Shown in pieces: positions 11,201-27,014 of a DNA stretch of 64,000 nucleotides. The stretch is from positions 1 to 64,000 of the forward strand of contig JAIXWF010000013.1 of assembly GCA_027482185.1 (NCBI GenBank), given 5' to 3'. Below the pieces are notes generated by a model. That model worked only from the letters and a program-made list of their open reading frames with translations. It did not search any database and had not been told where the DNA came from. The stretch is from Opitutaceae bacterium (GTDB lineage: Bacteria; Verrucomicrobiota; Verrucomicrobiia; Opitutales; Opitutaceae). Position 1 is the first letter of the stretch. Every line of letters begins with the position of its first letter. Position numbers and translations under genes: made by a program.

Positions 11201-11342
11201 CGGGGCCGTGGCAGTGGAAACAGTTTTCCGCGAGGATCGGCTGGACCTCGCGGGCGAAATCGACGGCCCCGGCCAAGGGCCAGGCCGGCAGCGCCAGCAG
11301 CAGCAGCGCGGCGCGCCGCAACGGACGGGGAAGGGGAGGCAT
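8223..11342 (-). CDS. DUF1549/DUF1553 (PSCyt1) c-type cytochrome-like secreted protein
   Basis: This is a large exported protein of 1039 aa. In order it shows a signal peptide (about 1-25), a PSCyt1 cytochrome-like domain with haem motif CFHCH (about residue 40), a DUF1549 domain containing a second CxxCH motif (CAQCHTHKFDPI, about residue 327), an insertion that looks like a beta-sandwich, and a C-terminal DUF1553 domain (about 690-1035, with NRVWQSVFGLGLVE). The chosen ATG gives a clean signal peptide; longer in-frame starts run into the divergent neighbour's promoter region. It is co-transcribed with the DUF1501 gene. Redox activity is inferred from the haem motifs; the substrate is unknown. 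Confidence 0.9.
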   Translation of the reverse strand: MPPLPRPLRRAALLLLALPAWPLAGAVDFAREVQPILAENCFHCHGPDAKDRKGGLRLDTRDGALKGGKSELPSLVPGKPDESEIMLRVLATDEEDVMPPPKENKRLTPAQKDTLRRWIAGGAPYAEHWAFTAPAKAPLPAGAVNPVDALVAAKLPSTGLKSAGPADSTTLVRRIWLDLVGLPPPPAAVDAFIAAEAKSGRAAAVDALITQLFADERYGEKWARVWLDAARFADSNGFEKDLPREQWAWRDWVIAAYNRDLPYDQFLIEQIAGDLLPDAKQDQIIATGFLRNGMINEEGAIIPEQFRIEGLFDRLDCVGKATLGLTLQCAQCHTHKFDPITHDEFFGIYAFLNNSYEAQSWVYTSEQQQQIAQIAKDLAAVDTKVREARPKWSEQLAAWEKELQTRRAGTAWAPIVAKELASTSGLNHPTQAADGSIFTDGHPSTKGDIFVIAEPALNGATGLRLEALCHDDFPFRGPGRSRYGTWAVTELEVSVQVPGSDKWEKLPLKNATADFSEPLRGIEPEWSANFDKEGKRILGPVAFMIDGSDNTAWRADRGPGRRNTESVAVVQFAEPLVRPAGTKLKALIRYHHSGDDNGRGNTMLGRCRLSLTDSPDPKAEPVDYAAQLALDTPPDRRTPEQQRAIFSAWRASVPALKKFQTESDALWKKYPGAKTTVLHLAERRADDVRPTRLLDRGAWDKPLHPVAPHVPAALHPLPADAPKNRLTFAHWIADRRSPLTARVAVNRVWQSVFGLGLVETPEDFGTRTPVPLQHDLLDWLAVDFMDRGWSQKQLLRTILSSTVYQQASRVAPAQLERDPRNQYLARGPRFRAEAEVVRDVALSAAGLLHQKVGGPSVFPPVPENVLAYNFFKVTYWDVPKNEERYRRSLYLFRKRSMPDPMLSAFDAPNGDAACVRRVRSNTPLAALTGLNEPVLVEAAQALALRVWREGGATEADRIVHAYRLCTSRAPKPAEAEAVARLLADTRARLKRGELKAGDIAFSEMTKPADLPADATPADLAAWTIAARVILNLDETLTKG

Positions 11343-11469
11343 GGCGAAAGACAAAGCGGTTCCTATGCAGAGTGCGGCGGCGGCGTTGGCGAGTCCAATT
11401 GCGGCGGCGGATTTTCTCCGCGCTTGCCCCGGGCGGGCCTTCGTGGCGCGGTGGTGGCAACCCCGCCCC

Positions 11470-12750
11470 ATGAATCTGCCGCGCCGCTTTTCCTCCCTGC
11501 CCCGCCGCTCGTTCCTCAAATCGTCCGCGGCCCTGGCGTTCCTCGGCGCGGCCCGCGGCGCCGCCGCTGCGCCCGCGGCGGCCAAAGCGGTTTCGGCCGA
11601 CGATCTCCGCCGCATCATGGAGGCCCCGGTGCTCGACTTGGCGACGGTGAAGGCCCCGGTGACGGTGGCGTCGCTGGAGTTGCTGCGCCACGGCAAGAAT
11701 TACCTCGTGCGCGCGCGGAGCACCGATGGCGCCGAGGCGATCACGGTGCCGAACCCCGCGATCATCGCGAAGGCGTGGCCCGTTTTGCTGGGCAACGTGT
11801 TCCCGACCTTCCTGAAAAAGGACGCGCGGCAGCTCGAGGCGCTGCACACGGACGTGTACCGCGCGGGCAGCAACTACAAGATGCAGGGCCAGCTGTTCTG
11901 GACCTGCGTGATGGCCGTCGAACAGGCGTTGCTCGAACTGATGGGCCGCACGGCGCAGGTGCCGGTGGCGACGTTCTTCGGCGGGGCGAAGCGCCGCGAC
12001 ATTCCGGTGTACTACGCCAGCGGCAACCGCGGGAACACGCCCGAGGCGGAGCTCAAGTTTCTCGAGGAAATGGTCGCGGGTTCGGGCGTGCGCGCCCTGA
12101 AGTTCCGGCTCGGCGGGCGCATGAGCCGCGATGCGGATTCGTTGCCGGGCCGGACCGAGAAACTGATTCCGCTGGTGCGGAAAACCTTCGGCGACGCGTT
12201 CACGCTCTACGCCGATGCGAACAGCTCCTACGGCCCTGCGGAGGGCATCCGCATCGGCCGGCTGATGGAAGAACAGCGCTATGCTTTCTACGAAGAGCCC
12301 TGCGAGTTCGACGATCTCTGGGGCACGAAGACCGTGGCGGACGCGCTCGCGATCCCCGTGGCCGGCGGTGAACAGGAATACAGCCTGCACCGCTGGCACT
12401 GGATGGTCGCGCAGCGCGGCGTCGATATCGTGCAGCCGGACCTGCACTACGGCGGCGGCTTTATCCGCGCGACCAAGGTGGCGCGCATGGCGGCCGCGGC
12501 CGGCATGACCGTCGTGCCGCACATGTCCGGCGGCGGCCTCGGCTACCTCGACGTCGTGCAGTTCGCGGCGTTCACCCCGAACATCGGGCCGTTTATGGAA
12601 TTCAAAGGTAACGCGACCATTCCCGTGATTTGCGCGACGTCGTCGCTGAAATGCGAGAATGGCAGCGTCCGCGTGCCGACGGGCCCGGGCTTCGGCGTCA
12701 TGGTCGATCCGGACTTCGTGCGCCAAGCCGAAGTCGTGCGGGCATCCTGA
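11470..12750 (+). CDS. Mandelate racemase/muconate lactonizing enzyme family protein
   Basis: This enolase-superfamily enzyme (426 aa) has a Tat-type signal (LPRRSFLKSSAALAFLG). The barrel shows the usual series of metal-ligand positions: Asp in LYADANSSYG, Glu in FYEEPCEF and Glu in VAGGEQEY. An Asp/His pair follows in VQPDLHYGG and VVPHMSGG, the arrangement of the mandelate-racemase branch. The expected Lys-x-Lys on strand 2 reads KFR, so the first Lys is kept and the second is Arg. The likely reaction is dehydration or racemisation of a sugar acid, but the substrate cannot be read from sequence. pdxA follows after 14 bp. Confidence 0.88.
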   Translation: MNLPRRFSSLPRRSFLKSSAALAFLGAARGAAAAPAAAKAVSADDLRRIMEAPVLDLATVKAPVTVASLELLRHGKNYLVRARSTDGAEAITVPNPAIIAKAWPVLLGNVFPTFLKKDARQLEALHTDVYRAGSNYKMQGQLFWTCVMAVEQALLELMGRTAQVPVATFFGGAKRRDIPVYYASGNRGNTPEAELKFLEEMVAGSGVRALKFRLGGRMSRDADSLPGRTEKLIPLVRKTFGDAFTLYADANSSYGPAEGIRIGRLMEEQRYAFYEEPCEFDDLWGTKTVADALAIPVAGGEQEYSLHRWHWMVAQRGVDIVQPDLHYGGGFIRATKVARMAAAAGMTVVPHMSGGGLGYLDVVQFAAFTPNIGPFMEFKGNATIPVICATSSLKCENGSVRVPTGPGFGVMVDPDFVRQAEVVRAS

Positions 12751-12764
12751 AAATCGCCGCACCC

Positions 12765-13730
12765 ATGACCGTGTCGTCCGCCCAAGCACTCCCCCGCGTG
12801 GCGGTGACGGTCGGCGATCCGGCGGGCATCGGTCCGGAGATCGTGCTGCGAGCCGTGGCCGATTCGAATGTGGCCGCGCGGTGCCGTCCGCTCGTGATCG
12901 GTTCGCGGGCCGTGCTGGCGGCCGTTGCCGCGAAACTCGATTTGCCGCTGCCGCCGGAGATCGAGGACCAGCCGCTGGATCCGGCGACGTTTGTCCCCGG
13001 ACAAATTTCGCCCCTCGCCGGGCGCGCGGCGGTGTTGGCCGTGCGCCGCGCCGCCGAGTTGGCGCTGCGCGGCGACGTCGGCGCGATCGCGACCGCGCCG
13101 CTCAACAAGGCGGCGATGGCCGCCGCCGGATTTTCCTACCCCGGGCACACGGAGCTGCTCGCGGAACTGGCCGGAGTAAATGACTACGCGATGCTGCTGG
13201 CGGCGGGCGCGCTGCGCGTGATCCACGTGTCGACGCACGTCAGTCTGGCGGAGGCGATCCGGCGCGTGCAGCGCCCGCGGATCGAGACCGTGATCCGGAT
13301 CGCGCACGAAACGCTCGGCCGGATGGGAATGCCGCGGCCGCGCATCGCGGTGGCGGGGCTCAACCCGCACGCCGGCGAAGGCGGACTCTTCGGCCACGAG
13401 GAGCGCGACGTGATCGCGCCGGCGGTCGCGGCCGCGCGGGCGGCCGGGTTCGACGCGAGCGGGCCGTGGCCGGGCGACACCGTGTTCTTCCGCTGCGCGC
13501 GGGGCGAATTCGACGTCGTCGTGGCGCAGTACCACGACCAAGGCCACATCGCGGTGAAGCAGGCGGGCTTCGAAATCGGCGTGAACATTACCGCCGGCCT
13601 GCCGTTCTTCCGCGTCTCCGTCGACCACGGCACGGCCTTCGACCTCGCGTGGCAGGGCCGGGCCAGCGCGCAATCGATGATCGAGGCTGTGTTGCTCGCG
13701 GCGAAACTCGCCGGCGAGTCGCAGATCTGA
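12765..13730 (+). CDS. pdxA: 4-hydroxythreonine-4-phosphate dehydrogenase (PdxA family)
   Basis: PdxA oxidises 4-phosphohydroxy-L-threonine in pyridoxal-phosphate synthesis. The protein (321 aa, normal length) shows the family start TVGDPAGIGPEIVL and metal-ligand histidines in YPGHTELL, YHDQGHIAVK and the NPHAGE loop. The close link to an enolase-superfamily gene rather than vitamin B6 genes makes a PdxA2-type role (oxidation of a 4-phospho sugar acid) a real alternative. The DUF1537 kinase that usually goes with PdxA2 is not seen nearby, so the classical name is kept. Confidence 0.85.
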   Translation: MTVSSAQALPRVAVTVGDPAGIGPEIVLRAVADSNVAARCRPLVIGSRAVLAAVAAKLDLPLPPEIEDQPLDPATFVPGQISPLAGRAAVLAVRRAAELALRGDVGAIATAPLNKAAMAAAGFSYPGHTELLAELAGVNDYAMLLAAGALRVIHVSTHVSLAEAIRRVQRPRIETVIRIAHETLGRMGMPRPRIAVAGLNPHAGEGGLFGHEERDVIAPAVAAARAAGFDASGPWPGDTVFFRCARGEFDVVVAQYHDQGHIAVKQAGFEIGVNITAGLPFFRVSVDHGTAFDLAWQGRASAQSMIEAVLLAAKLAGESQI

Positions 13731-13881: not shown

Positions 13882-13977
13882 TTCCCGGCTGAGCGGCGCC
13901 ATTACGGCGCGAGATAATACGGGTGCGGACACGATTGCCGTTTGCGCGGCGGTTGGGGCGCATGCGAAACACAGGCG

Positions 13978-16386
13978 ATGATTCAGGATCTCCTGCAGTT
14001 GCGCGATCTCGAGCCCCCCATGGGCGACCTTTTCACGAACGCCACCTTGGCCGCGGGCCGGGCGGTGTGGACGCGGCCGTTGCCGCAGGAGACGGGCGTG
14101 CCGGAGAAACGCATCGTGCACGCGCGCGTGCTGCGCCTGCCCGGCCGCGCCCGGCTGCACCGTCTAGGAGTGCGCAAAGGCCAGGGCTACCACAAGTGCG
14201 GCAGCCGCCAGGATCTCGACTGGGTGACGGCGCTGCGGCTGCTGGTCTTCGTCGGCGGCCGCTGGGAGGCGGCGCTTTATCTGCCCGAAGTGCGCAAGCC
14301 CGCCGACGGCGAAATCCTTTGGTTTGAACTCGGCGGACGCGAGGTCGAGGGCGTCTCGATCGAGATCCGCAAGTCCGGCATCGACGACGGTTGGTCGCCC
14401 TGGAATCTCGCGCAGTCCGCGTTCGTGCTGGAAGGCGAACTCGTCGACGCGCTGCCGCCGCGGGACGAGCGGCTGCTCGACGTCGCCGATGTCGACCTGA
14501 CGCGGTTGCCGCGCGGCGTCACCGCCTGGTACCGCGACGGCGAGGTGAGGTACCGCACGCGCGAATTCGAGGTGGGCTTCCACCTCGCGCGGCCGGGCTG
14601 CTCGTTTCTCGGCCTCGCCACCGAGGCGCCGGACCAACGCGACACCAACCTCCTCGCGATCCGGCCCGCGCTCAGCCTGCAGGGGCCGCGGCTGCACGAG
14701 GCGGGCCGCGCGCCCGTGCTCGCCCCGGCCGTGCGTTTCGCGGCGGCGGGCACGGCGGAGGTGCGCGGCGCCGAGGTGAGCTACGATTTCTACGCCGGCG
14801 GCCAGCGCTTCAAGCTGCGCTGGCGCGTGGGCCCCAAGGGCCTGCGGCTGCAGGCGGAACGGATCGCGGCCCGCGCCACGACGGCGTGGCACAGCGCGGT
14901 CTGGACCTTCGGCCTGAAGAACAGCGTCGCCCCCTCGCACGTGCTCGGCGCGCTCGCGCCCGACGGCGAAGCCGGCGCGGTCGCGCTGCCGCTGCTGCTC
15001 CACCTGCCGCGCTTCGGCAGCTGGGAAGTCTCCGCCCGCGGCGCGGCGGCGTTCGCCCGCAGCGACTGCTTCCGGGCCCAGGATTTCAACGCCCTCGAGC
15101 TGAAACTCGGCGAAACGCGTACGCCCGAGGGCCTCTACCGGCTGCCGGCCGGCCGTTTCACCGCGGAGTTCACGCTGCGGCCCGCGCGGCCCGCGGTCGC
15201 GTTGCGGCCCGGCGCCCCCGCCGTCGTGCGGCGCGCGCTGGCGCGCACCGCCCACACGGCCCTGACCTACCGGGCCGACACCGGCACGCTGAGCAACAAC
15301 GGCGCCTCCATGCACTGTCCGATCTGTCTGGATACGTGGGCGGCGGTGACGCGGCCCATGGGCGAGATCCTGCCGGGATTGCCCGCCACGGAATTGCTGC
15401 GCACCTCGCTGGAGCGCTGGCTCGACGGCGGTCCCGGCTACGCGGCCGGGCGGCTGGTGCAGGACGGCGTCGCGCACGACGCCGCCGACGAATACCTGAT
15501 GACCGACACGGCGGGCCTGCGCGGCCTCGCGGACTACCTCCGGCACACGGCCGAGCCCGCGTGGTTCCGGCGTTACCGGCGGCGGATTTTGCAGCGCATC
15601 GACGCGGTGAAGCGGCGCGACCTCGACGGCGACGGCCTGATCGAAAGCCCGTACCGCACCGGCGTCAGCGGCACCGGCCAGTGGAGCACGTGCTGGTGGG
15701 ACGTGATTTCCTTCGGCTGGAAGGACGCTTTCGCCAACGCGATCCTGCACGGTGCGCTGCGCGAGCTCGGGCCGGCGTTGCGACGGTTCGGCGCGACGGC
15801 GCCCGCGCGTTCCGCCGAGGCCTGGGCGGATCGGCTCCGGGCGAGTTTCCATCCGGCGTTCTGGAACGAAGCCACGGGCTGGCACGCGGGCTGGCGGTGC
15901 AAGGAAGACAAGCTGCACGACTACGCCTTCCTCGGCGTCAACGGCGCCGCCGTCGCGCTCGGCCTCACCGACCTTGCGACGGGGCGCGCGGTGATGCGCC
16001 GGTTGCTCGCGGAGGCGGAGCGGGTCGGCATGCCGGATCCGGCGCTCGGGCTGCCGGGCAACCTGCGGCACATTCCCGACGCGGACATGGCCGACATCAT
16101 CCAGGGGTATCCGCTCGGGTACTACCAGAATGGCGGCCGCACCCATGCGCAGACGCGCCACGTCGTCATGGCGCTCTACCGCGTCGGCCTGAAACGCGAG
16201 GCCGACCGGCTGCTCTCGCGCCTGTGCGCAGGGTTCGCGGAAGCGCGCGTTTACGGCGGCAACCAGAGCGGCGTGGACTGGCGCTACTGGGACGACCGCC
16301 CCTGCGGCTACGAGGGTCTGCTGACGGACCAGTTCGGCCTGCTCGAGGCGGTCTTCGCGCGCTGGGGACGCCCAAAGCGGGCTTGA
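13978..16386 (+). CDS. Six-hairpin glycosidase-like protein
   Basis: This 802-aa protein has a beta-rich N-terminal half (about 1-420) and a C-terminal (alpha/alpha) toroid typical of six-hairpin glycosidases. The toroid section contains acidic and aromatic clusters usual for carbohydrate sites: DEYLMTDTAGL, RRDLDGDGLIESPY, WDVISFGWKDAFAN, and near the end YPLGYYQNGGRTHAQTRH. The ATG at 13978 was chosen; an upstream TTG would add 12 residues. No clear signal peptide is present. It probably hydrolyses oligosaccharides released by neighbouring secreted enzymes; the exact glycoside hydrolase family was not assigned. Confidence 0.72.
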   Translation: MIQDLLQLRDLEPPMGDLFTNATLAAGRAVWTRPLPQETGVPEKRIVHARVLRLPGRARLHRLGVRKGQGYHKCGSRQDLDWVTALRLLVFVGGRWEAALYLPEVRKPADGEILWFELGGREVEGVSIEIRKSGIDDGWSPWNLAQSAFVLEGELVDALPPRDERLLDVADVDLTRLPRGVTAWYRDGEVRYRTREFEVGFHLARPGCSFLGLATEAPDQRDTNLLAIRPALSLQGPRLHEAGRAPVLAPAVRFAAAGTAEVRGAEVSYDFYAGGQRFKLRWRVGPKGLRLQAERIAARATTAWHSAVWTFGLKNSVAPSHVLGALAPDGEAGAVALPLLLHLPRFGSWEVSARGAAAFARSDCFRAQDFNALELKLGETRTPEGLYRLPAGRFTAEFTLRPARPAVALRPGAPAVVRRALARTAHTALTYRADTGTLSNNGASMHCPICLDTWAAVTRPMGEILPGLPATELLRTSLERWLDGGPGYAAGRLVQDGVAHDAADEYLMTDTAGLRGLADYLRHTAEPAWFRRYRRRILQRIDAVKRRDLDGDGLIESPYRTGVSGTGQWSTCWWDVISFGWKDAFANAILHGALRELGPALRRFGATAPARSAEAWADRLRASFHPAFWNEATGWHAGWRCKEDKLHDYAFLGVNGAAVALGLTDLATGRAVMRRLLAEAERVGMPDPALGLPGNLRHIPDADMADIIQGYPLGYYQNGGRTHAQTRHVVMALYRVGLKREADRLLSRLCAGFAEARVYGGNQSGVDWRYWDDRPCGYEGLLTDQFGLLEAVFARWGRPKRA

Positions 16387-16458: not shown

Positions 16459-18879
16459 TCAGGGTTCGACCGCGATCCGCAGGGTATCCAGATCCAGCAC
16501 ACAGGTCGGGCCGCCGGCGAGTCGCAGCCGGATCCGCGCCGCGCCGGGGGTGCTTTCGAGGACGGTGGCCGCGGCGGCTTGCGCGGTCTCGGCCGGAGTT
16601 TCGCCGGGGGCCAAGACCAGCACCGCGAAGGCGAGGGGGCCGTTCGCGGCCGGGACGGACGCGTTGAGGTGGAAGCGTTGTTCCAAACGGCCGGCCGCGC
16701 CGGTCGGCGCCGGCACGTAGCGGGCCGGACCGGAAGCCGCGAGGCGCACGATGCCGAGACGTCCGTCCACGTTGACCCAGGGGGACGCCGTCTCGAACGG
16801 AGCCTCGGCGGCCGCCGCCGTCGCCCGGAAGGTCCGCGTTCCGCCCGGGAAATGCAGCGTGCGTTCCCCGCGGTGGCCGGGCCAGTGCGGATCGTTGAGC
16901 ACGCCGATCGTGCCGAGATCGAGGAGCTTCGGGCGCGCCGGACCCGTCGCGACGAGGACGTCGGCGTAGACGGTCCGCCCGTCGGGCAACGCCAGAAACG
17001 CGAAGCGCTGTTCCACGGCTCCGCCGCCGCGCTCGAGCCGGCCGGCGACGCCGATGCCCGCCGGCAGCGTTGCCACCGCGACCTCCCGCACCACCGGGGC
17101 CTCGCGGGCGCCGTCGGGCATGGCCACGTGGCCGACCAGCGAGCGCGATTCCGGACTGACGAGCAGATCCTCCCCAAACGGAACGACCAGCCCCATGGCC
17201 TGCGCGCCCCACGAGAACGAGGCGAAGGCCCGCGCCGTGCGTTGCACGGCCAGGCGGCCGTCCGGAAACAGCTGACGCCCGGCGAGCGCAGGCATGAGGT
17301 CCTCGGCCGGCAGGGGCGGCGGGCCGTCGCCGAATTCGGCCAGCAGCGCGTAGGCGTGGGCGGGCATCTCCAGCGCCATGGCGTCGTCGGAGCTCAGCTT
17401 CGTCTCCGTCGAGAGCAGAATCGAGCCGCGCGGCGTGCGCGCCGCCATGCGCTCGAGCGTCGCCAGCGCGGCCTCCCGCAGGGAGGCGGCGCTGGCGTCG
17501 CCGTGCAGCACCGCAAGGGCGTTGTGGTGCTCGAACCAGTCGGCGTGCCGCCGCAGGCCCCAGTCCTGCCCGTTCGGATACACGACGGAGCCGTCGGGCA
17601 GCGCGAGCGCCTGCAGCGCGGCGTTGATGCCCGCGACGTTGAGACGCAGCGCGTCCGGCGGCGGCAGGCCGCCCCAGCCGTGGAACGGCACCTGCGAGGT
17701 CAGCAGGTAGGTGCAGGCCATGTAGTCGGGATGGATCCGCCGGTGGTTCTCGAGCGTGAAATCGTCGAGCAGGTTGGCGCCGGCGAGCCACTCGCGCAGC
17801 GGGCGCCCGTCGACGAGGTCGGCGCGGTCGAGGTCCGCGGGCCGGGCGAAGGCGGATACGCTCCACCGCACGGCGGCCTCCCGCCAGCGGGGGCGGCGCG
17901 GGTGGTGCGGAAACATCGCGGCGGCGAGCGCCGGGGCCTGGGAGTTCCACGCGTTTTCCTCCGCCTTGGAATCGTCGCGGAGCTGGGCCGGGGGCGGTTG
18001 GTCGACGAAGCGGTCCGCCTCGGCGGCGATCATGCGGGCGGCGAGCCGACGGTCGGCTTCGGACAACTCGTCCCAGCACAGCCACGCCGCTTCGCCGGCG
18101 AGCCCGGCCCAGTAGGCCGATTGCCACTGGCGCTGCCACGGGCGGCCGTCCGCGCCGTACGAGCGCACGAGCCCGCGCACAACGTCGGCGGCGCGGCGGC
18201 GGAGCAGGCCGGGCGCAAGGTCCGCCGGATAAACGTCCGCGGGCACGAGCGCCGCGACCAACGCGAGGCCCTTGGCCGTGTGGGCGCTCGGCCGGATCCC
18301 ATGTTCGCCCGAGGGAGCGCGGCCCGCCGGGACGGGCAAGGCGGCGGTGTCCGGCGTCGGCCCCGTTTGCAGCCGTTCGAGGAGGGCGCCGGCCTGTTGC
18401 AGCAGCAACGGTTCGAGCCGGCGCATCAGCGCCGTGCGGTGGTGGCGGGGAGGCACGGCGGCGCTCGTCCGGAAATCGCCGGCGGTGTCCGCGCGCACCG
18501 GATCGCCCCGCGGATCCGCGGGACCCACCGCGAGGGCGCCGGTCGGACCGTCCTCGACCACGGCCAGCCCCGAACCGGCGAGCAACTCGCGCACGGCGGC
18601 GAGCGGCGCGTAGGCGCCGCGCAGCGGCCGCGTGCGCAGGTCTCGGACCGAGTCCGTGGAAAACAGAATTTCCCGCCCGGAAATGCGCGCGACCTCGCGC
18701 AGGGCGGGCGCGGCTTCGCCGGCGGGCAGATCGAAGGTCCGGAGTTCGCCCGGGGCGGGGGCGGCCCCGCCGGACGCGAACGTCCCGCCCAGGACCAACC
18801 GCGCGACCGCGCGCCAAACGCGCCACGGCGGCAGTCGCCGCGGCACGGATCCGGACGGCGGGGCGGGGGGCATGGACAT
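16459..18879 (-). CDS. STN domain fused to a polysaccharide-lyase-like enzyme
   Basis: This 806-aa protein, divergent from the sigma-factor operon, has three parts. A signal-like segment covers about residues 14-43. An STN domain covers about 48-117 and contains FDLPAGEAAPALREVARISG and REILFSTDSV; it closely parallels the N-terminus of the TonB receptor at 20692-23931 (YDLPAGDAATTLRLLSEASR, REILFAADVV). An alpha-helical toroid (about 150-480, with AEENAWNSQA and YPNGQDWGLRRH) is followed by a beta-sandwich, the layout of heparinase/PL8-like lyases. The frame is unbroken across the junction. Enzyme chemistry is inferred from fold only. Starts at 18909 or 18873 are also possible. Confidence 0.75.
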   Translation of the reverse strand: MSMPPAPPSGSVPRRLPPWRVWRAVARLVLGGTFASGGAAPAPGELRTFDLPAGEAAPALREVARISGREILFSTDSVRDLRTRPLRGAYAPLAAVRELLAGSGLAVVEDGPTGALAVGPADPRGDPVRADTAGDFRTSAAVPPRHHRTALMRRLEPLLLQQAGALLERLQTGPTPDTAALPVPAGRAPSGEHGIRPSAHTAKGLALVAALVPADVYPADLAPGLLRRRAADVVRGLVRSYGADGRPWQRQWQSAYWAGLAGEAAWLCWDELSEADRRLAARMIAAEADRFVDQPPPAQLRDDSKAEENAWNSQAPALAAAMFPHHPRRPRWREAAVRWSVSAFARPADLDRADLVDGRPLREWLAGANLLDDFTLENHRRIHPDYMACTYLLTSQVPFHGWGGLPPPDALRLNVAGINAALQALALPDGSVVYPNGQDWGLRRHADWFEHHNALAVLHGDASAASLREAALATLERMAARTPRGSILLSTETKLSSDDAMALEMPAHAYALLAEFGDGPPPLPAEDLMPALAGRQLFPDGRLAVQRTARAFASFSWGAQAMGLVVPFGEDLLVSPESRSLVGHVAMPDGAREAPVVREVAVATLPAGIGVAGRLERGGGAVEQRFAFLALPDGRTVYADVLVATGPARPKLLDLGTIGVLNDPHWPGHRGERTLHFPGGTRTFRATAAAAEAPFETASPWVNVDGRLGIVRLAASGPARYVPAPTGAAGRLEQRFHLNASVPAANGPLAFAVLVLAPGETPAETAQAAAATVLESTPGAARIRLRLAGGPTCVLDLDTLRIAVEP

Positions 18880-18988
18880 TACGACGAAGGAGGCTGCGGA
18901 TTCCGCCATGCCGCGCGCGCGGTCCGGAAGTTTTCCGGGCGCAGGCTTGTTTTCGTTTGCCGCGCGGTGCTAAGTCCGCCGCACGCCG

Positions 18989-19516
18989 ATGCCGCCGCCC
19001 GATGCCGAACGCGCCCGCTGGTTTGCCGAGGAGGTGCAGCCCCATGCGGCCGGGCTGAGGTCCTACCTCGCGCGGCAATTCCCGGGCCTCGGCGAGACCG
19101 ACGATCTGGTGCAGGAAGCCCTGATGCGCGTGCTGCGGGCGCACGAAGCCGGGCCGGTCGCGGCGCCGCGGGCGCTGCTGTTCGCGGCGGCGCGCAATCT
19201 CGCGCTCGATCTGCTCCGCCGCCGGCAGGTGGTCTCGTTCGAGCCGATTACGGAAGTTTCCGATCCGTCCGTCTTCCTAGGCAACGATGCCGTTTCCGAA
19301 ACTGTCAGCCGCAAAGAGGAGTTCGCGCTCTTGACCGAGGCTATCCAGTCCCTGCCGGACCGTTGCCGCCAGGTGTTCACGCTGCGCGTGGCCTACGGCT
19401 TGTCCCAGCGCGAAATTGCCGCGCGGCTCGGGATTTCCGAAAACACGGTGGAGAAACAGATGGGCAAGGGATTCCGGCGCTGCAGCGAATTCCTGGCCCG
19501 GCACGGCCTGCCCTGA
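18989..19516 (+). CDS. ECF RNA polymerase sigma factor (FecI-like)
   Basis: This is a 175-aa group-4 sigma factor. Region 2 (about 18-80) contains the core-binding and -10-recognition helices (TDDLVQEALMRVL, ARNLALDLLRRRQ). Region 4 (about 115-170) contains the -35 helix-turn-helix (YGLSQREIAARLGISENTVEKQMGK read in parts). FecR follows 18 bp downstream, then a TonB receptor, so it is a cell-surface-signalling sigma factor. It probably activates the receptor operon and perhaps the divergent STN-lyase gene across a gap of about 110 bp. Confidence 0.93.
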   Translation: MPPPDAERARWFAEEVQPHAAGLRSYLARQFPGLGETDDLVQEALMRVLRAHEAGPVAAPRALLFAAARNLALDLLRRRQVVSFEPITEVSDPSVFLGNDAVSETVSRKEEFALLTEAIQSLPDRCRQVFTLRVAYGLSQREIAARLGISENTVEKQMGKGFRRCSEFLARHGLP

Positions 19517-19534
19517 CAGGGCCGGTCCCGCACG

Positions 19535-20593
19535 ATGGCGACGCCCCCTGCTTCTTCCGGTGAGCCGGCCGATCCGGCCGTGGCCGCGGCCGCCGACTGG
19601 CTCGCGCGGCGGGACCGCGGCCTCACGGCGGCGGAACAGGACGACTATCTGCAGTGGCTCGCGAGCGATCCGCGGCATCCGGCGCTGATGGCGCGGCAGG
19701 AGGCGACCTTCGCGCTCATGAGCCGCCTGTCGCGCTGGCAACCGGGCGGCGGCGGCGAGCCGAATCCGGACTTGTTCGCGCCCGGGCCGGTGCGGGCGCG
19801 GTGGATGCGGTTGGCGCCGTGGGCGGCGGCGGCCGCGCTCGCGGTCCTGGCCGGCGGTTATTTTTTCCGCTCCGCCCCGGTCTCCCGGCCGGCGGCGCCG
19901 GCCCCGGCCGAGGCCGCGCTCGCGACGGGCTTTCTCCGCGTCAACGAACGCCGCGCCTTGCCCGACGGCTCGCTGGTCGAGCTCAAGGACGGGAGCCGGA
20001 TCGATGTGGAATTTTCGCCCGAATTCCGCCGCGTGCGGCTGCAGGGCGAGGCCCACTTCACCGTGGCCAAGGATCGGGCGCGGCCCTTCGTCGTCGAGGC
20101 CGGCGGCGTCGCGGTGCGGGCGGTCGGGACCGCGTTCAACGTCCGCCTCGATGCCGGCGCCGTTGATGTGCTTGTGACCGAAGGTCGGGTCAGCGTCGAA
20201 CCTGTCGCCGTCGCGGGGGGCGGCGCGGGCGAGCCCGGGCCCGCGCCCGCGCTGGTCGAGGCGCGGCAGCGCACGGTCGTGCCGTTGGCTCCGACCGCGG
20301 CGGCGCCGGAAGTGGTATCGGTGACGCCGGAGCAGGTCCGCGAGGCGCTCGCCTGGCAGGCGCCGCGGCTGCAATTTTTCGAGACCCCGCTCGGCGAGGC
20401 CGTGGCGGAGTTCAACCGCCGCAACCCTGCCTTCTGCTTGGTGCTGCACGATGCGGAGCTGGCGCGGGTGCGCATCGGCGGGACCTTCCGCATCGACAAC
20501 GTCGAAGGCTTCGTGCGCCTGCTGGAAGTCACCCTCGGCATCCGCGGCGAAGCGGCGGGCAACGGGGAAATCCTGCTGCGCCGCCTGCCGTGA
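19535..20593 (+). CDS. FecR-type anti-sigma factor
   Basis: This inner-membrane regulator (352 aa) has a cytoplasmic DUF4880 domain (about 8-58, with DWLARRDRGLTAAEQDDY), one membrane segment (about 89-108) and a periplasmic FecR domain (about 130-222, with LKDGSRIDVEF and GTAFNVRL). Its C-terminal region (about 270-350, FFETPLGEAVAEFNRRNP and IGGTFRIDNVEGF) has itself the look of an STN/DUF4974 domain. In the Fec paradigm, FecR receives the signal from the receptor's STN domain and releases or activates the sigma factor. Confidence 0.92.
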   Translation: MATPPASSGEPADPAVAAAADWLARRDRGLTAAEQDDYLQWLASDPRHPALMARQEATFALMSRLSRWQPGGGGEPNPDLFAPGPVRARWMRLAPWAAAAALAVLAGGYFFRSAPVSRPAAPAPAEAALATGFLRVNERRALPDGSLVELKDGSRIDVEFSPEFRRVRLQGEAHFTVAKDRARPFVVEAGGVAVRAVGTAFNVRLDAGAVDVLVTEGRVSVEPVAVAGGGAGEPGPAPALVEARQRTVVPLAPTAAAPEVVSVTPEQVREALAWQAPRLQFFETPLGEAVAEFNRRNPAFCLVLHDAELARVRIGGTFRIDNVEGFVRLLEVTLGIRGEAAGNGEILLRRLP

Positions 20594-20691
20594 CCGGCAC
20601 GGCCCGCGCGGCCGCCCACAAACTTTCGCGACGGGATTACGGAAACGGCGCCGTGGCTCGTCATCACCCGCAACCCCACCCGCCACCTCCC

Positions 20692-23600
20692 ATGCGCCTT
20701 CCCGCCGCCCCCGTCTTGTCCGCCTTGCTCCTGCTTCGTTGGCTGCCCGTCGGGTGCCGGCTGGCCCTGCTCCTGCCCCTCTTGGCCGCGACCGTCCGGG
20801 CCGGCGACGCGGCGAAGCGGGCCTACGACCTGCCCGCCGGCGACGCCGCCACGACCCTGCGGCTGCTGTCCGAGGCGTCGCGGCGCGAGATCCTGTTTGC
20901 GGCGGACGTCGTGCGCGGCGTCGCCACCAACGCGGTCCGGGGCGAGTACACCGCGCTCGAGGCCGGGGAGCGTTTGCTCGCCGGCACAGAGCTGGCGGTG
21001 CTGCAGGACGACCGGACCGGCGCGCTTGCCGTCCGGCGCCGGGAAACGGCCGCGGGTTCGACCGCGGCGGCGGCGGGCCGCACCGGCGATGCCTCGGTCC
21101 AGGGGCGCGTCGTGAATCCGGCGACCGGGGCGGCGCTCGAGGGCGTGACCGTGCAGGTGGCCGGCACCGACCGCACCGTCCTCACCGAACGCGACGGCAC
21201 CTTTTCGATTCCGCGGCTGGCGCCCGGCACCATCGTCCTCCGCGCCACTTACCCGGGCCTCGACGCCGGCACCCAGACCGCGGAGCTCAAGCCCGGGGCC
21301 AACGTGCTGCCCGACCTCAAGCTGACCTCCGACATCTACGCCATGGAGGCCTTCGCCGTCTCCGCCATGCGCGAGGGCAACGCGGCCGCGATCGTGCGCC
21401 AGGAAAACGCGCTCACGATCACCAACTCGGTCTCGACCGACGCCTACGGCAACGTGGCCAAGGGCGACATGGGCTCCTTTCTCCAGCGCATGCCCGGCAT
21501 CGTCGGCGAATACGGCGGCTCGGCGGTCGACGCGATCTCGGTGCGCGGCCTCTCGCCGGAATTCACCACGGTCACGATGGACGGCACGCGTTTCGCCGCG
21601 GCCAATCCCGATTCGCGCACCCAGGTCGTGAGCGGCCTCGCCTCCGGCTCGATCGAGAGCGTCGAGGTCGTGAAGACCCCGACCGCCGACATGGACGCCG
21701 AATCCCTCGGCGGCGTCGTGAACCTGCGCACGCGCAGCGGCTTCGACCGCAGCGGCCGCGCGATCATCTTCAACGCCGCCGGCGCCTACAACGAGACGAT
21801 GGGCCGCCACCTCGATCCGTCCGGCGGCGGCCGCCGGTTCTTTCCCCACTTCTCGCTCGATTACTCCGACGTCGTCCTGCTTTGGGGCCGGAAGCTCGGC
21901 ATCTCGCTCACCGGCGCGTATCAGGAAGTCGGCGACGGCCTGCAGACGATCCGCGCGGCCTTCGCCGGCAACTGGGACTACGCCGGGCCCACGGTCGGCC
22001 GGCAGGTGGTCTACGCCGACCAGGAGTACCACCTGAACAAGCGGGTGAATTTCCAGGCCAAGTTCGACTACAAGCTCTCCGCCGAATCCGCGGTCACGTT
22101 CTCCGCCGGTTGGACGCGTTTCGTGAACATCATGGACCAGGTCCGGCCGCAGTACACCGACAACCTCGTCTTCGACGCCGCCAACTCCACCTCCGACTAC
22201 TGGGTCTTCACGCGTTCGAGCTACCGCTCGAACCGCGACTACCGCTACACGCCGAGCGACCTGTGGAACTTCCAGCTCAGCGGCAAGACCGCGGTCGGCG
22301 CGGTCAAGTTGGACTGGGCGCTGACCTATTCGGATTCGTTCCGCCCGCTCGACCGCATGGCGGCCACGGCCCGCAGCAACAACACCTACGCGTTCACCTA
22401 CGACCGCCGCCGGAGCAAGGAATTCCCGACCCTCGCGTTCTCCGGCCCGCTGGCCCCGCCGAACGACCCCTTCACCAACATGCTCTCGATCGCGCTCACC
22501 GGCACGCACGAGGACGCCTCCGACAAAATCGCGAGCGCCAAACTCGACGCCACGCGCGACTTCCCGGCGTGGCGCTTCCCGGTGAAGCTCAAGACGGGCT
22601 TCCGGATCCGGCAACAGGACCGCGACCGCGACGCCGACTCGATCACCGGCACGCTCGGCGCCGGCGACTACAGCCGCTACCGCGAGTTCGGTTTCACCCA
22701 CGGCTGGCTCGACGGCCGCTATCCCGCCACCCCCATCGTCAACACGAAGGGCGTCTTCAACGATGTCGGCTTCCGCTACCAGCCCTCCGGTCTCGCGGCC
22801 CGCCCCGCCGTGCAGTTCGCCTACAATCCCGCCGCGATCACGCTGACGACGGCCAATCTGGATACGTCGGTGACGAACTCCCTGCAGAACGATTACCGCA
22901 CCCGCGAGACCATCCCGGCCGGTTACGTGCAGTCCGAAGTGAAGTGGAGCCCGCGCCTGCGGATGACCGCCGGGCTGCGTTTCGAGCAGACGGTCGCGCG
23001 GATCACGTCGCGCTTCGAGAACACCCGGATCACGAATCCCGAGACCCGCTTCGGCACTTTCCGTACCGTCGAATCCGACTACGTCGATTGGTTCCCGAAC
23101 CTCCAGTTCCGCTACGAGCCGATCCGGCACCTCACCTTCCGCGCCAACTACTCGACGACCATCGGCCGCCCCCGCATCGCCGATCTGGTCGGACGTTTCT
23201 CGGTCAACGACATCGGCCAGGCGGTCAGTTTCTCCAATCCGTCGCTCAAACCGCAGATCTCGCGCAATTACGACGTCAGCCTCGAGTACTACTTCAAACC
23301 CGTCGGCGTCGCCTCGATCGGCGCCTTCCGCAAGGACATCAAAAACTACGTCGCCGCGACGTCGTTCCGCATCACGGGCAACGAATTCGGCCTCGATCTC
23401 GGCGACTACGTCGGCTGGCAGGGCAACAGCCGCATCAATTCCGGCAACGGCACCGTCGAGGGCATGGAGTTCAATTACTCGCAGCAGCTCGGCTTTTTGC
23501 CCGGCGCCTTCCGCGGCTTCGGCGTCATGGGCAACTGGACCGTCCTCACCAGCGCCGGCGACTACAACGGCGTCGTGACGAACCTGCCGTTCAAGAACAA

Positions 23601-23931
23601 CCTCACCGGCATGCGCCCGCGCTCCGGTAACGCCGGCCTGACCTACAACTACCGCCGCTGGGACCTGCGGCTGATGTGGAACTACGCCGATACCTATCTC
23701 TCCAGCCTCAACGCCGGCGATCCCTCGAGCTCCGAGTTCATCGGCCGCCGCGGCCAGTACGACTTCTTCGCCCGCTTCAAGATTTCGCGGAATCTCAACG
23801 TCTTCTTCGACGTGATCAACCTGACCGAGGAAAACCGCGGTCGCTACAACGGCCTCTACCGCGAGGACCGCCGGGCCCAGACGAACCTCTTCCCGCGTTC
23901 GATTTCCGCCGGCGTCCAGGCCCGCTTCTGA
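20692..23931 (+). CDS. TonB-dependent receptor with N-terminal STN signalling domain
   Basis: This outer-membrane transducer (1079 aa) has a signal peptide (about 1-38), an STN domain (about 43-118), a carboxypeptidase-regulatory-like beta domain (about 125-205, with GRVVNPATGAALEGVTVQV), a plug (about 230-345, with VDAISVRGLSPEFTTVTMDG) and a 22-strand-type barrel to the end. The C-terminus ends in Phe (VQARF), as expected for barrel insertion. It would import an oligosaccharide or similar ligand and report binding to FecR. The ATG at 20692 gives the best signal peptide; it lies about 100 bp after fecR. Confidence 0.93.
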   Translation: MRLPAAPVLSALLLLRWLPVGCRLALLLPLLAATVRAGDAAKRAYDLPAGDAATTLRLLSEASRREILFAADVVRGVATNAVRGEYTALEAGERLLAGTELAVLQDDRTGALAVRRRETAAGSTAAAAGRTGDASVQGRVVNPATGAALEGVTVQVAGTDRTVLTERDGTFSIPRLAPGTIVLRATYPGLDAGTQTAELKPGANVLPDLKLTSDIYAMEAFAVSAMREGNAAAIVRQENALTITNSVSTDAYGNVAKGDMGSFLQRMPGIVGEYGGSAVDAISVRGLSPEFTTVTMDGTRFAAANPDSRTQVVSGLASGSIESVEVVKTPTADMDAESLGGVVNLRTRSGFDRSGRAIIFNAAGAYNETMGRHLDPSGGGRRFFPHFSLDYSDVVLLWGRKLGISLTGAYQEVGDGLQTIRAAFAGNWDYAGPTVGRQVVYADQEYHLNKRVNFQAKFDYKLSAESAVTFSAGWTRFVNIMDQVRPQYTDNLVFDAANSTSDYWVFTRSSYRSNRDYRYTPSDLWNFQLSGKTAVGAVKLDWALTYSDSFRPLDRMAATARSNNTYAFTYDRRRSKEFPTLAFSGPLAPPNDPFTNMLSIALTGTHEDASDKIASAKLDATRDFPAWRFPVKLKTGFRIRQQDRDRDADSITGTLGAGDYSRYREFGFTHGWLDGRYPATPIVNTKGVFNDVGFRYQPSGLAARPAVQFAYNPAAITLTTANLDTSVTNSLQNDYRTRETIPAGYVQSEVKWSPRLRMTAGLRFEQTVARITSRFENTRITNPETRFGTFRTVESDYVDWFPNLQFRYEPIRHLTFRANYSTTIGRPRIADLVGRFSVNDIGQAVSFSNPSLKPQISRNYDVSLEYYFKPVGVASIGAFRKDIKNYVAATSFRITGNEFGLDLGDYVGWQGNSRINSGNGTVEGMEFNYSQQLGFLPGAFRGFGVMGNWTVLTSAGDYNGVVTNLPFKNNLTGMRPRSGNAGLTYNYRRWDLRLMWNYADTYLSSLNAGDPSSSEFIGRRGQYDFFARFKISRNLNVFFDVINLTEENRGRYNGLYREDRRAQTNLFPRSISAGVQARF

Positions 23932-23939
23932 GCGCCGCC

Positions 23940-26900
23940 ATGGTCCGACGTGCTGCCCGGCAGGCCTTCGCGGGCGCGCTGCTGCTCCTCGGCTTCGCCG
24001 CGCCGGCCGGCGCGCAGTCCGTGCCGCCCGAGCGGCCGCGCACGCGGCCGCCTTCGATGCTCACCGGCCGCGCGCAGTGGGAGAAAGGCGCCGATCTGCT
24101 CAAGCGCCTTGATGTCCCGCCCGCGCCGCCGCTGAGCCCCGAGGAAGCGCTGAAAACGTTCCGCCTCGCGCCGGGGTTCCGGCTCGAACTCGTCGCCGCG
24201 GAGCCGATGGTGCAGAATCCGGTGTCGTTCGAGTTCGATCCCGACGGCCGCATCTGGGTCGTGGAGTACCAAGGGTACATGCGCGACCTCAAGGGCTCCG
24301 GCGAAGGCGATCCGATTTGCCGCGTGGTCGTGCTCGAGGACACCGACGCCGACGGCCGCGCCGACAAGAGCACGGTGTTTCTCGAAGGGCTCGTCATGCC
24401 GCGTTCGTTGACGTTCGTGAAGGGCGGCGTGCTCGTGCAGGAACCGCCGAAGGTCTGGTTCTGCGAGGACACCGACGGCGATCTGCGCTGCGACCGGCGC
24501 ACGGAGGTCGGCAAACTCGGCGTCGCCGGCAATCCCCAGCACACCGGCAACGGCCTGCGCTACGGGATCGACAACTGGCTCCACAACGCCGACGCGACTT
24601 CGCGGCACCGCTGGGCCGACGGCAAACTCGTCGAGGAGCCGATGCCCAAGAGCGGCCAGTTCGGCGTGTCGTTCGACGAGACCGGCCGCTTCCTCACTTC
24701 GCACGAAAGCTCGGCGCTGCACGCCGACCTCATCCCGGGCAACTACATCGTGCGCAACCGCCACCTCGCCGCGATCGCGCAACGCGGCGGCCGCGGCTTT
24801 GCGGGCATCGACACCAACATCGCGCGCAACGCGCAGCAGATTTACCCGATCCGGGTCACGCCCGGCATCACGCTCGGCGCGATGGAACTGCGCGACGACG
24901 GCCGGCTGCGCACGTACACGATCGTCTCCGGCACCTGCTTCTACGACGGCGACCAATTCGGCCCGGAGGCGCAGGGCAACGTCTTCGTGCCCGAGTCCGG
25001 CGGCAATCTCGTCGGCCGCCTGAAACTCGCGCCTGGGCTCCGGCCCAAAGCCGAGCGTTTCTATCCCGCGGAACAGGAGTTCCTCGCTTCGACCGACGAA
25101 CGCTTCCGTCCCGTCAACGCCCGCGTCGGCCCCGACGGTGCGCTCTACCTTGCCGATCTCTACCGCGGCATCATCGAGCACGTGATCTTCCTCGTGCCGT
25201 GGATCACCGACCAGGTCCGCGACCGCAAACTCGACGTCGGCCAGAACCAAGGCCGCATCTACCGCATCGTCCGCGACGACCGTCCGATCGTCCGCACGCC
25301 GCCGCAACTCTCGCGCGCCTCCGTGGCGGAACTCGTGCGCCACCTCGGCCATCCGACGGGCTGGTGGCGGCTCACCGCGCAACGCCTCTTGGTCGAGCGG
25401 CGCGATCCGGCGGCCGTGCCGTTGCTCGCCGCGCTCGTGCGCGGCGGCGAATCCGCTCTGGGCCGGTTGCATGCGCTCTGGACGCTCGACGGTCTCGGCG
25501 CCCTGGCGCCGGAATTGAAATTCGCGGCGCTGGACGATCCCGACGAGCGCGTGCGCGCCGCGGCGTTCCGGCTGGCCGAAACCGGACTCGATCCCGCGCA
25601 ACGGCGGCAACTCCTCGCCCGGCTCGACCGCGCCGTGGCCGATCCGTCCGAACGCGTGCGGCTGCAGGCGACGTTGACGGCGAGCTCGTTGGCGGAGCCC
25701 GCCGCGTTGCCGGTGCTGGCCCGGCTCGCGCGCAGCGGCGACGATGCCTTGTTCCATGCGGCGGCGCTCACGGGCCTGCAGCATCGGGAATTGGAATTCC
25801 TGAAATTGCTGCTGGCGGATTCGCGGACGCGTCCGCCGGCCGGTCCGCACGAGACCGCGCTGATTGCGCTCGCGGTGCATTGCGTGCTCGAAGCCGCCGA
25901 TCCCGGGCGCGCCTCCGGTCTCCTCGATGAATTGGCCGCGGCGGGCGGACCCGAGCACTGGCAACGCACGGCGTTGCTCGACGCCATCGGTCCCTTCGCC
26001 GGCAGCCTGCGCCGCTACCGCAAGCCGGTCGACCTGGCCCGCCCGCCTGCCGTGCTGTTGGGCTACGCCCGCGGCCAGGACGCCGCGCTGCGCCAACAGG
26101 CGTACCGGTTGCTCGATTTGTTCACGTGGCCCGGGGCGGGGGCGTTGGCGGGGGCGGAGACCGAGACGTTGACGCCGTTGCAAGTGAAGCGGCTCGAGGC
26201 GGGGCGCGAGGTGTACGCGCAATTCTGCGCCGCGTGCCATCAGCCCAACGGCACCGGCGCGCCGAATCTCGCGCCGCCCTTGGCCGGCAGCGATTGGGTC
26301 GCGGGCCCACCGGAGCGCCTCGTGCGCGTGGTCCTGCACGGCCTCTACGGCCCGGTGCAGGTGAACGGCCAGACGTGGAATTTGGCGATGCCCGGCCTCG
26401 GGATCGCGGGCGCGCTCGACGACGAGAAGATCGCCGCGGTGCTGAGCTACGTGCGGCGCGCTTGGGGGAATGCCGGCGGATTCGTCGCGCCGGCGCAGGT
26501 GGCCGAGGTGCGGCACGCGACCGCGGGCCGGACGCTGCCGTGGACCGCCGACGAACTCGGGGCCGTGGTTTCGTCCGGCGCCGCGGAGTCCGGGGCGCCG
26601 CCGATTGTGCCGGACGTTGCCGGGGAGTTGATGTTGCCGGCGAGCCGCGCCGCGGTGCACGCGCAGAAGCTCGGCTATCGCCCGGCGCTCGATGTGCTCG
26701 CGCCGTGGACCGTGGCCGACGACATCGCCGTCTGGCGCGTGCGGGTGCCGGCGGCCGGACGGTACGCGGTGCACGTCACGCTGGCGGCCGATGCGGAATC
26801 CGAAGGCGATTTCTATGCCGTCGAAACGGAAGGCAGTCGCACGCGCGGGGAAGTGCGCGCGACGGGCGACTACGACCATTTCCGCGAGCAACCGGCCGGC

Positions 26901-27014
26901 TCGCTGACTCTGCGGGCCGGGGAAAACCGCATCGTGCTCCGACCCGACGGGCCGTTGAAACGCGAGCTCGCCGACGTGCGTGGGCTGCGGTTGGTCCCGG
27001 AAGGAAAACCGTGA
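23940..27014 (+). CDS. PVC-type haem-binding CxxCH protein with dehydrogenase-like propeller
   Basis: This exported protein (1024 aa) has a signal peptide (about 1-26), a beta-propeller of the membrane-bound-dehydrogenase type (about 45-455, GFRLELVAAEPMVQNPVSFEFD read in parts), HEAT-like helical repeats (about 470-700), a c-type cytochrome with CAACH (about residue 763) and a C-terminal jelly-roll resembling carbohydrate-binding modules (about 895-1020). It begins 8 bp after the TonB receptor. The family is common in Planctomycetota and Verrucomicrobiota. Oxidation of a sugar with electron transfer through the haem is a reasonable inference, but the substrate is unknown. Confidence 0.9.
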   Translation: MVRRAARQAFAGALLLLGFAAPAGAQSVPPERPRTRPPSMLTGRAQWEKGADLLKRLDVPPAPPLSPEEALKTFRLAPGFRLELVAAEPMVQNPVSFEFDPDGRIWVVEYQGYMRDLKGSGEGDPICRVVVLEDTDADGRADKSTVFLEGLVMPRSLTFVKGGVLVQEPPKVWFCEDTDGDLRCDRRTEVGKLGVAGNPQHTGNGLRYGIDNWLHNADATSRHRWADGKLVEEPMPKSGQFGVSFDETGRFLTSHESSALHADLIPGNYIVRNRHLAAIAQRGGRGFAGIDTNIARNAQQIYPIRVTPGITLGAMELRDDGRLRTYTIVSGTCFYDGDQFGPEAQGNVFVPESGGNLVGRLKLAPGLRPKAERFYPAEQEFLASTDERFRPVNARVGPDGALYLADLYRGIIEHVIFLVPWITDQVRDRKLDVGQNQGRIYRIVRDDRPIVRTPPQLSRASVAELVRHLGHPTGWWRLTAQRLLVERRDPAAVPLLAALVRGGESALGRLHALWTLDGLGALAPELKFAALDDPDERVRAAAFRLAETGLDPAQRRQLLARLDRAVADPSERVRLQATLTASSLAEPAALPVLARLARSGDDALFHAAALTGLQHRELEFLKLLLADSRTRPPAGPHETALIALAVHCVLEAADPGRASGLLDELAAAGGPEHWQRTALLDAIGPFAGSLRRYRKPVDLARPPAVLLGYARGQDAALRQQAYRLLDLFTWPGAGALAGAETETLTPLQVKRLEAGREVYAQFCAACHQPNGTGAPNLAPPLAGSDWVAGPPERLVRVVLHGLYGPVQVNGQTWNLAMPGLGIAGALDDEKIAAVLSYVRRAWGNAGGFVAPAQVAEVRHATAGRTLPWTADELGAVVSSGAAESGAPPIVPDVAGELMLPASRAAVHAQKLGYRPALDVLAPWTVADDIAVWRVRVPAAGRYAVHVTLAADAESEGDFYAVETEGSRTRGEVRATGDYDHFREQPAGSLTLRAGENRIVLRPDGPLKRELADVRGLRLVPEGKP

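Follow-up and report, generated by a model that had tools for sequence, protein, structure and literature searches.

Cell-surface signaling is usually described with one receptor STN domain and one FecR, and RsgI-type anti-sigma factors with enzyme domains are known as well. In systems of the FecA/FecR/FecI kind (PupB/PupR and FoxA/FoxR), an extracytoplasmic function (ECF) sigma factor, a FecR ending in an STN-like subdomain, and a receptor with an N-terminal STN are encoded adjacently in that order. The same set is present in the stretch of DNA that we analyzed, the first 64,000 nucleotides of contig JAIXWF010000013.1 from an Opitutaceae bacterium (assembly GCA_027482185.1; "the window" below), but here a second STN is carried by a divergent, lyase-like enzyme, and the substrate is probably a polysaccharide and not an iron carrier. 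The locus also resembles the Bacteroides SusC loci, in which an STN-bearing TonB-dependent importer and an ECF sigma/anti-sigma pair serve glycans (PMC7782687). According to the same source, the Bacteroides STN is on SusC and follows an N-terminal extension, whereas in the window the STN precedes a CarboxypepD_reg domain and the second STN is on an enzyme. RsgI anti-sigma factors and the ECF52/53 sigma factors, whose added domains are enzymatic or bind sugars, likewise join a carbohydrate-related domain to a sigma signaling protein (PMC10766802, PMC4711584, PMC12203970); however, their domain is part of the sigma or anti-sigma protein, while in our locus the enzyme bears the partner domain, the STN. 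No STN-lyase was described in the open-licence PMC papers that we searched, and the enzyme-borne STN is a new variation on cell-surface signaling.

An earlier note on this DNA, made from the letters alone, had placed the open reading frames (ORFs) of the enzyme, sigma factor, FecR, and receptor where we found them, with the enzyme gene divergent from the operon of the other three:

16459..18879, minus strand: STN-lyase of 806 amino acids (aa); a second possible in-frame start is at 18909
18760..18879, minus strand: export-signal-like leader of the enzyme, residues 1 to 40, from the sequence; predicted local distance difference test (pLDDT) below 50 at residues 1 to 37
18520..18741, minus strand: enzyme STN domain, residues 47 to 120 approximately, from homology, profile matches, and the model
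16462..18444, minus strand: lyase-fold catalytic part, residues 146 to 806 approximately, from the model and Foldseek
18989..19516, plus strand: FecI-like ECF sigma factor (Pfam Sigma70_r2 and r4_2)
19535..20593, plus strand: FecR-type anti-sigma factor with an STN-like C terminus (Pfam FecR, 4.8e-15)
20692..23931, plus strand: STN, CarboxypepD_reg, and TonB-dependent receptor (Pfam Plug and barrel; STN by homology)

The enzyme carries a real STN domain, as the earlier note had supposed. Its N-terminal stretch had 15 further matches in its own genome (E values of 9.0e-15 to 8.6e-8), including the receptor of the window, and a phmmer search of PDB sequences returned the STNs of the receptors 2a02, 5odw, and 8s34 (E values of 2e-4 to 3e-3). 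A profile of seven STNs matched 14 PDB sequences at E values of 0.1 or lower, among them PupB, the ferripyoverdine receptor, the pseudobactin 358 receptor, FemA, and FoxA. The AlphaFold2 model of the enzyme had a mean pLDDT of 89, with block means of 84 to 97 in the STN, and showed the secondary structure of an STN; it was built from a 33-row alignment in which 4 rows covered the STN, and a single-sequence prediction was discarded (pLDDT of 35 versus 89 with the 33 rows). The Pfam STN family PF07660 scored 18.2 bits on the enzyme, under the curated cutoff of 28.4. This model is insensitive at the locus, because even the STN of the cognate receptor is not listed by Pfam at an E value of 1. The other components fit the FecIR type: the ECF sigma gene stands beside the FecR gene, the TonB-dependent receptor has an N-terminal STN, and FecR residues 135 to 335 match the periplasmic region of PupR (6ovk_R; E value of 9e-7), whose C terminus is an STN subdomain (PMC7186176), in agreement with the STN-like FecR C terminus noted before. 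Judged by its leader, the enzyme is probably periplasmic.

The catalytic part had no family or sequence match in Pfam, NCBIfam, or PDB sequences. Its model, helices first and then strands, has the helical toroid and beta-sandwich of polysaccharide lyases (PLs), and Foldseek gave 1rwa as the first match (E value of 2.8e-12; template modeling [TM] score of 0.50), which bears out the earlier description of the enzyme as lyase-like. Chondroitin AC, hyaluronate, heparan sulfate, and related lyases were the structures it resembled. The matches 1rwa, 8fyg, 4mmh, 4fnv, and 8r6z, which are of the PL8/PL12/PL33 kind, were aligned over 629 to 838 columns, gaps included. Compared with these lyases, identity was 8 to 14% and the TM score by query length was at most 0.50, and the enzyme differs from them in its added STN and in having no Pfam family. 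Residues E308, N309, N378, H379, H383, Y386, N436, and Q438 were kept in 90% or more of the aligned rows, and the candidate catalytic residues N309, N378, H379, H383, and Y386 were near-invariant in the alignment. The model suggests that the enzyme is probably a polysaccharide lyase cutting acidic polysaccharides.

The STN-lyase fusion is rare. Genomes with the catalytic part numbered 20 of 252 in the family, 14 of 372 drawn from the order (both at an E value of 1e-10), and 34 of 387 drawn from the phylum (1e-20), and a pattern scan of GTDB contigs gave 36 loci; these sets overlap and records repeat. Among the 118 loci examined, many of them with only 1.5 kb of flank, 117 had the catalytic domain, and an in-frame STN was present only in the window (L009 and L137) and in G063, a metagenome-assembled genome of the same genus (L013, L033, and L064, the last two apparently being the same contig). 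The order of STN-enzyme, divergent sigma factor, FecR, and STN-receptor in G063 is that of the window, and since a second metagenome-assembled genome has the same architecture (L064), an assembly artifact or a chance fusion is ruled out. The earlier note had asked whether the fusion always lies beside sigma/FecR/TonB genes, which was so in both species, and had staked its idea on the STN part not being absent from all other genomes, which held narrowly, with one other genome (G063) having it.

Among close relatives, this real fusion is tied to the local signaling operon. The enzyme had its STN in both genomes with an adjacent sigma/FecR pair and STN-receptor and in none of the five without them (G123, G245, G246, G242, and G094). 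In these five, enzyme and receptor both lacked the STN, and no FecR was seen beside the enzyme in the stretches fetched. The same five genomes hold at least 9 to 27 STN matches elsewhere, among the matches listed, so that the absence is specific to the locus. Receptors behaved similarly: of 10 orthologues at 76% identity or more, those of the window, G063, and G056 (the last compared over its first 382 residues, up to the contig end) had the STN and are the three with sigma/FecR, while none of the other seven did (G064, G065, G097, G094, G123, G245, and G246), and no FecR was seen near these seven within the stretches fetched. Two places had sigma-like ORFs beside which no FecR was seen, one about 5 kb from the receptor of G064 and the other about 9 kb from the G242 enzyme; neither was counted as a system. 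The G242 receptor is only 49% identical and split in two ORFs, with the enzyme start broken by Ns, and in G094 the enzyme is in two frames and the receptor is on a separate 5.6-kb contig.

A LacI-type regulator, a symporter, and a GFO/IDH gene, with no sigma/FecR, were observed in the clusters of G245, G246, G242, and G097 (L030, L032, L034, and L253). The regulator was identified by Pfam in G246 and by a phmmer match to the G246 protein in the others. From the sequences, LacI versus sigma/FecR around a related receptor reads as a regulator swap. The G246 enzyme ORF (L032:2045-5413) is longer than the others by some 400 residues at its N terminus.

The enzyme STNs of the window and G063 are 51% identical (37/72), compared with 58% (382/654) in the catalytic part, 41% (9/22) in the linker, and 31% (11/35) in the leader, and the export-signal-like N terminus is retained in both. 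Both enzyme STNs are closest to the local receptor family: among 103 other STNs, that of the window receptor came first for each of them, at 53% identity for the window enzyme (tied with the G056 receptor) and 57% for the G063 enzyme. The window enzyme also shares REILF unchanged with its cognate receptor, so the resemblance between these two STNs that had first been noticed was upheld. The G063 receptor STN ranked 18th for the window enzyme STN. E70 and R79, equivalent to PupB L74 and E83, are common to both enzymes and the three cognate receptors; E and R are frequent at these positions (42 and 44 of 104 STN rows). The PupB sites were taken from PMC7186176 and PMC11429574 and placed on the chain by eye, and T77 of PupB as given in PMC11637429 disagrees with that numbering.

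We propose that the enzyme is a second FecR partner through its STN, shielding FecR and limiting or resetting the sigma response, and we give this reading a probability of roughly 0.45. The analogy is with pseudomonad systems. In the PupR:PupB structure, helix 1 and strand 2 mediate docking of the signaling domain onto the FecR-like protein (PMC7186176); FoxA appears to lose its signaling domain by cleavage, and a signaling domain overproduced in the Pseudomonas periplasm abolishes signaling and stabilizes the anti-sigma factor (PMC11637429). The lyase would be exported to the periplasm, where its STN would bind the STN-like FecR C terminus as receptor STNs do, and the bound STN would shield FecR from proteolysis and hold the sigma factor off. 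Because the free STN protects the anti-sigma factor in the FoxA work (PMC11637429), the default effect of a soluble STN-lyase is probably inhibitory, protecting FecR and damping the response. Were the enzyme also expressed under the same sigma factor, it would thus limit or reset that response. It is possible, in addition, that substrate loading loosens the grip of the STN, so that sugar cutting reports to the sigma factor.

Shared expression would rest on a promoter-like motif, which is clear before the enzyme in G063 and weak in the window:

20639..20662, plus strand: promoter-like motif ACGGAAA-N13-CGTC ahead of the receptor gene, the only match in the window (0.11 expected)
18883..18904, minus strand: imperfect motif GGAAT-N13-CGTC by the enzyme start at 18879, weak and first spotted by eye

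Three receptors (those of the window, G056, and G063) and the G063 enzyme are preceded by the exact motif. It was matched in 9 of 166 loci, which include repeated records of those four places and three other places (L003/L132, L076, and L127); the L127 and L132 matches fall within sigma ORFs. The imperfect motif falls inside the enzyme ORF if the start is at 18909.

Several results weigh against the enzyme as a second FecR partner. G056 kept sigma, FecR, and STN-receptor with no enzyme at the locus, and the enzyme was not found in that genome (85% complete); the operon can therefore persist without the enzyme, which is apparently dispensable. In the distantly related Pinibacter (L084), an STN-less enzyme of 32% identity stands about 5 kb from a FecR-like ORF and a weakly sigma-like one, so nearness to such genes alone brings no STN. 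The co-occurrence of STN and sigma/FecR may go back to one ancestral event and thus carries little statistical weight. Approximately unbiased tests of one clade (p of 0.40 with the catalytic part, 0.50 with the STN) neither rejected nor showed it; in the STN trees, neither a shared enzyme-STN clade (p of 0.495) nor a grouping of the enzyme STNs with their cognate receptors (p of 0.469) was rejected, so that one or two fusions are both possible. The enzyme STN is less constrained than the receptor STN (Nei-Gojobori [NG86] ratio of nonsynonymous to synonymous rates [dN/dS], window versus G063, of 0.53 and 0.23, respectively, with 0.32 in the catalytic part). For the G063 enzyme STN, its own receptor STN ranked only 12th; over helix 1/strand 2 alone, cognates ranked 3rd to 45th; position 68 is G in both enzymes and R in the cognate receptors; and the exact motif is absent before the window enzyme. 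The earlier idea of a second input to the same anti-sigma factor survives in part: it is supported by the adjacent sigma/FecR/STN-receptor genes in both species, the receptor-family STN, and the lack of the regulator beside the STN-less relatives, and opposed by the enzyme-less G056 operon. Its activating sign, under which the enzyme would switch the sigma factor on, is disfavored, as the Pseudomonas signaling domain alone blocks signaling and protects the anti-sigma factor (PMC11637429).

The main sober rival is that the enzyme STN is a relic. A sigma-FecR-STN block entering between two divergent genes could have left a drifting STN copy on the enzyme, and G123, where an STN-less enzyme and an STN-less receptor are divergent and directly adjacent, has the pair into which such a block would have come. 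The receptor-family origin and the looser constraint of the enzyme STN agree with this. However, fold residues and an open frame persist in both species (STN identity of 51%), dN/dS stays under 1, and both enzymes keep the export-signal-like N terminus, and we consider a relic unlikely. A substrate-gated co-sensor, in which the STN of a working lyase activates or unrestrains FecR and degradation switches the sigma factor on, appears improbable to us. The union of lyase fold and STN on one chain speaks for it, and the LacI-type genes in the clusters of STN-less relatives (G245, G246, and G242 with the enzyme; G097 without) suggest that the locus is often sugar-regulated; but no allosteric link was seen, the G056 operon does without the enzyme, and in Pseudomonas the free STN acts as an inhibitor (PMC11637429). 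It is similarly doubtful that the catabolic enzyme is a direct, substrate-gated anti-sigma ligand by way of a signaling domain borrowed from receptors, such that the workload of the lyase in the periplasm, and not only receptor occupancy, sets the activity of the sigma factor. Docking without regulation, with the STN merely keeping the lyase close to FecR, to the receptor, or to the TonB machinery for incoming chains, would suit a lyase that probably handles imported oligosaccharides, and secretin STN domains interact mutually (PMC11637429), but it is distinctly unlikely given that close relatives have the STN only with sigma/FecR, though the same receptor occurs STN-less.

This locus, where an enzyme bears an STN of its own next to the same FecR, is a natural test of whether an STN acts in trans and with what sign, a question reopened by the 2024 FoxA work. 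Both the relatives that lack the STN and G056, which lacks the enzyme, lend themselves directly to comparison.

Two genes flank the locus:

13942..16386, plus strand: protein of 814 aa, no Pfam family
23676..27014, plus strand: DUF7133/cytochrome c protein

The G056 orthologue of the 814-aa protein is 95.8% identical over 810 aa and is directly followed by the sigma gene, with no enzyme between. A homologue of the DUF7133/cytochrome c protein is also downstream of the receptor in G245, G246, G097, and G065. Enolase-superfamily (MR_MLE) and PdxA-family genes adjoin the locus at 11002-13730 of the window, and these neighbors suggest sugar-acid catabolism. Elsewhere, L256 (G248) holds two tandem sigma-FecR-STN-receptor sets whose FecR matches are equal in score.

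No further STN-enzyme fusion was seen among 104 further STN ORFs of the genus and family, among the matches listed; ORFs below 1000 aa were chosen preferentially, and the set is no complete census. In the first set of 42, 33 grouped with receptors, and in the second set of 62, 55 did so with receptor kin. The remaining 16 of the 104 are 151 to 240 aa long with no receptor part seen, and at least two are cut by contig ends. Several of these receptor-less ORFs have FecR on one side and a separate receptor gene on the other. Closed STN-only ORFs of 151 to 231 aa were observed in L188, L193, L194, L195, L196, and L198. A receptor ORF closely follows in L193, L194, and L198 and is 1.7 kb downstream in L195 and L196 (the same STN protein in two genomes), while none was found after the L188 ORF. 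Such free-standing STN ORFs bear on whether an STN acts in trans.

Additionally, the free STN ORFs of L097, L098, L099, L101, L105, and L194 have a run of A8 to A10 near their ends (e.g., L101:8340-8386), where they overlap a receptor ORF that is out of frame with them and starts with a signal-peptide-like segment. Runs of A8 or longer were found within 260 nucleotides after the STN in 8 of the 104 ORFs; for comparison, these loci hold 24 such runs over 1,708 kb with both strands counted, those of the eight ORFs included. This pattern suggests slippage or phase variation between a free STN and an STN-receptor fusion. Neither the enzyme nor the receptor of the window has a signal-peptide-like segment after the STN. 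Such a segment was present in 22 of 85 longer STN ORFs, two of which look spurious on reading, versus 1 of 75 in a control region (examples are L133:7488-11096, L213:96-3590, and L226:680-4399); these STNs could be set free, or could be later additions ahead of a receptor that kept its old leader.

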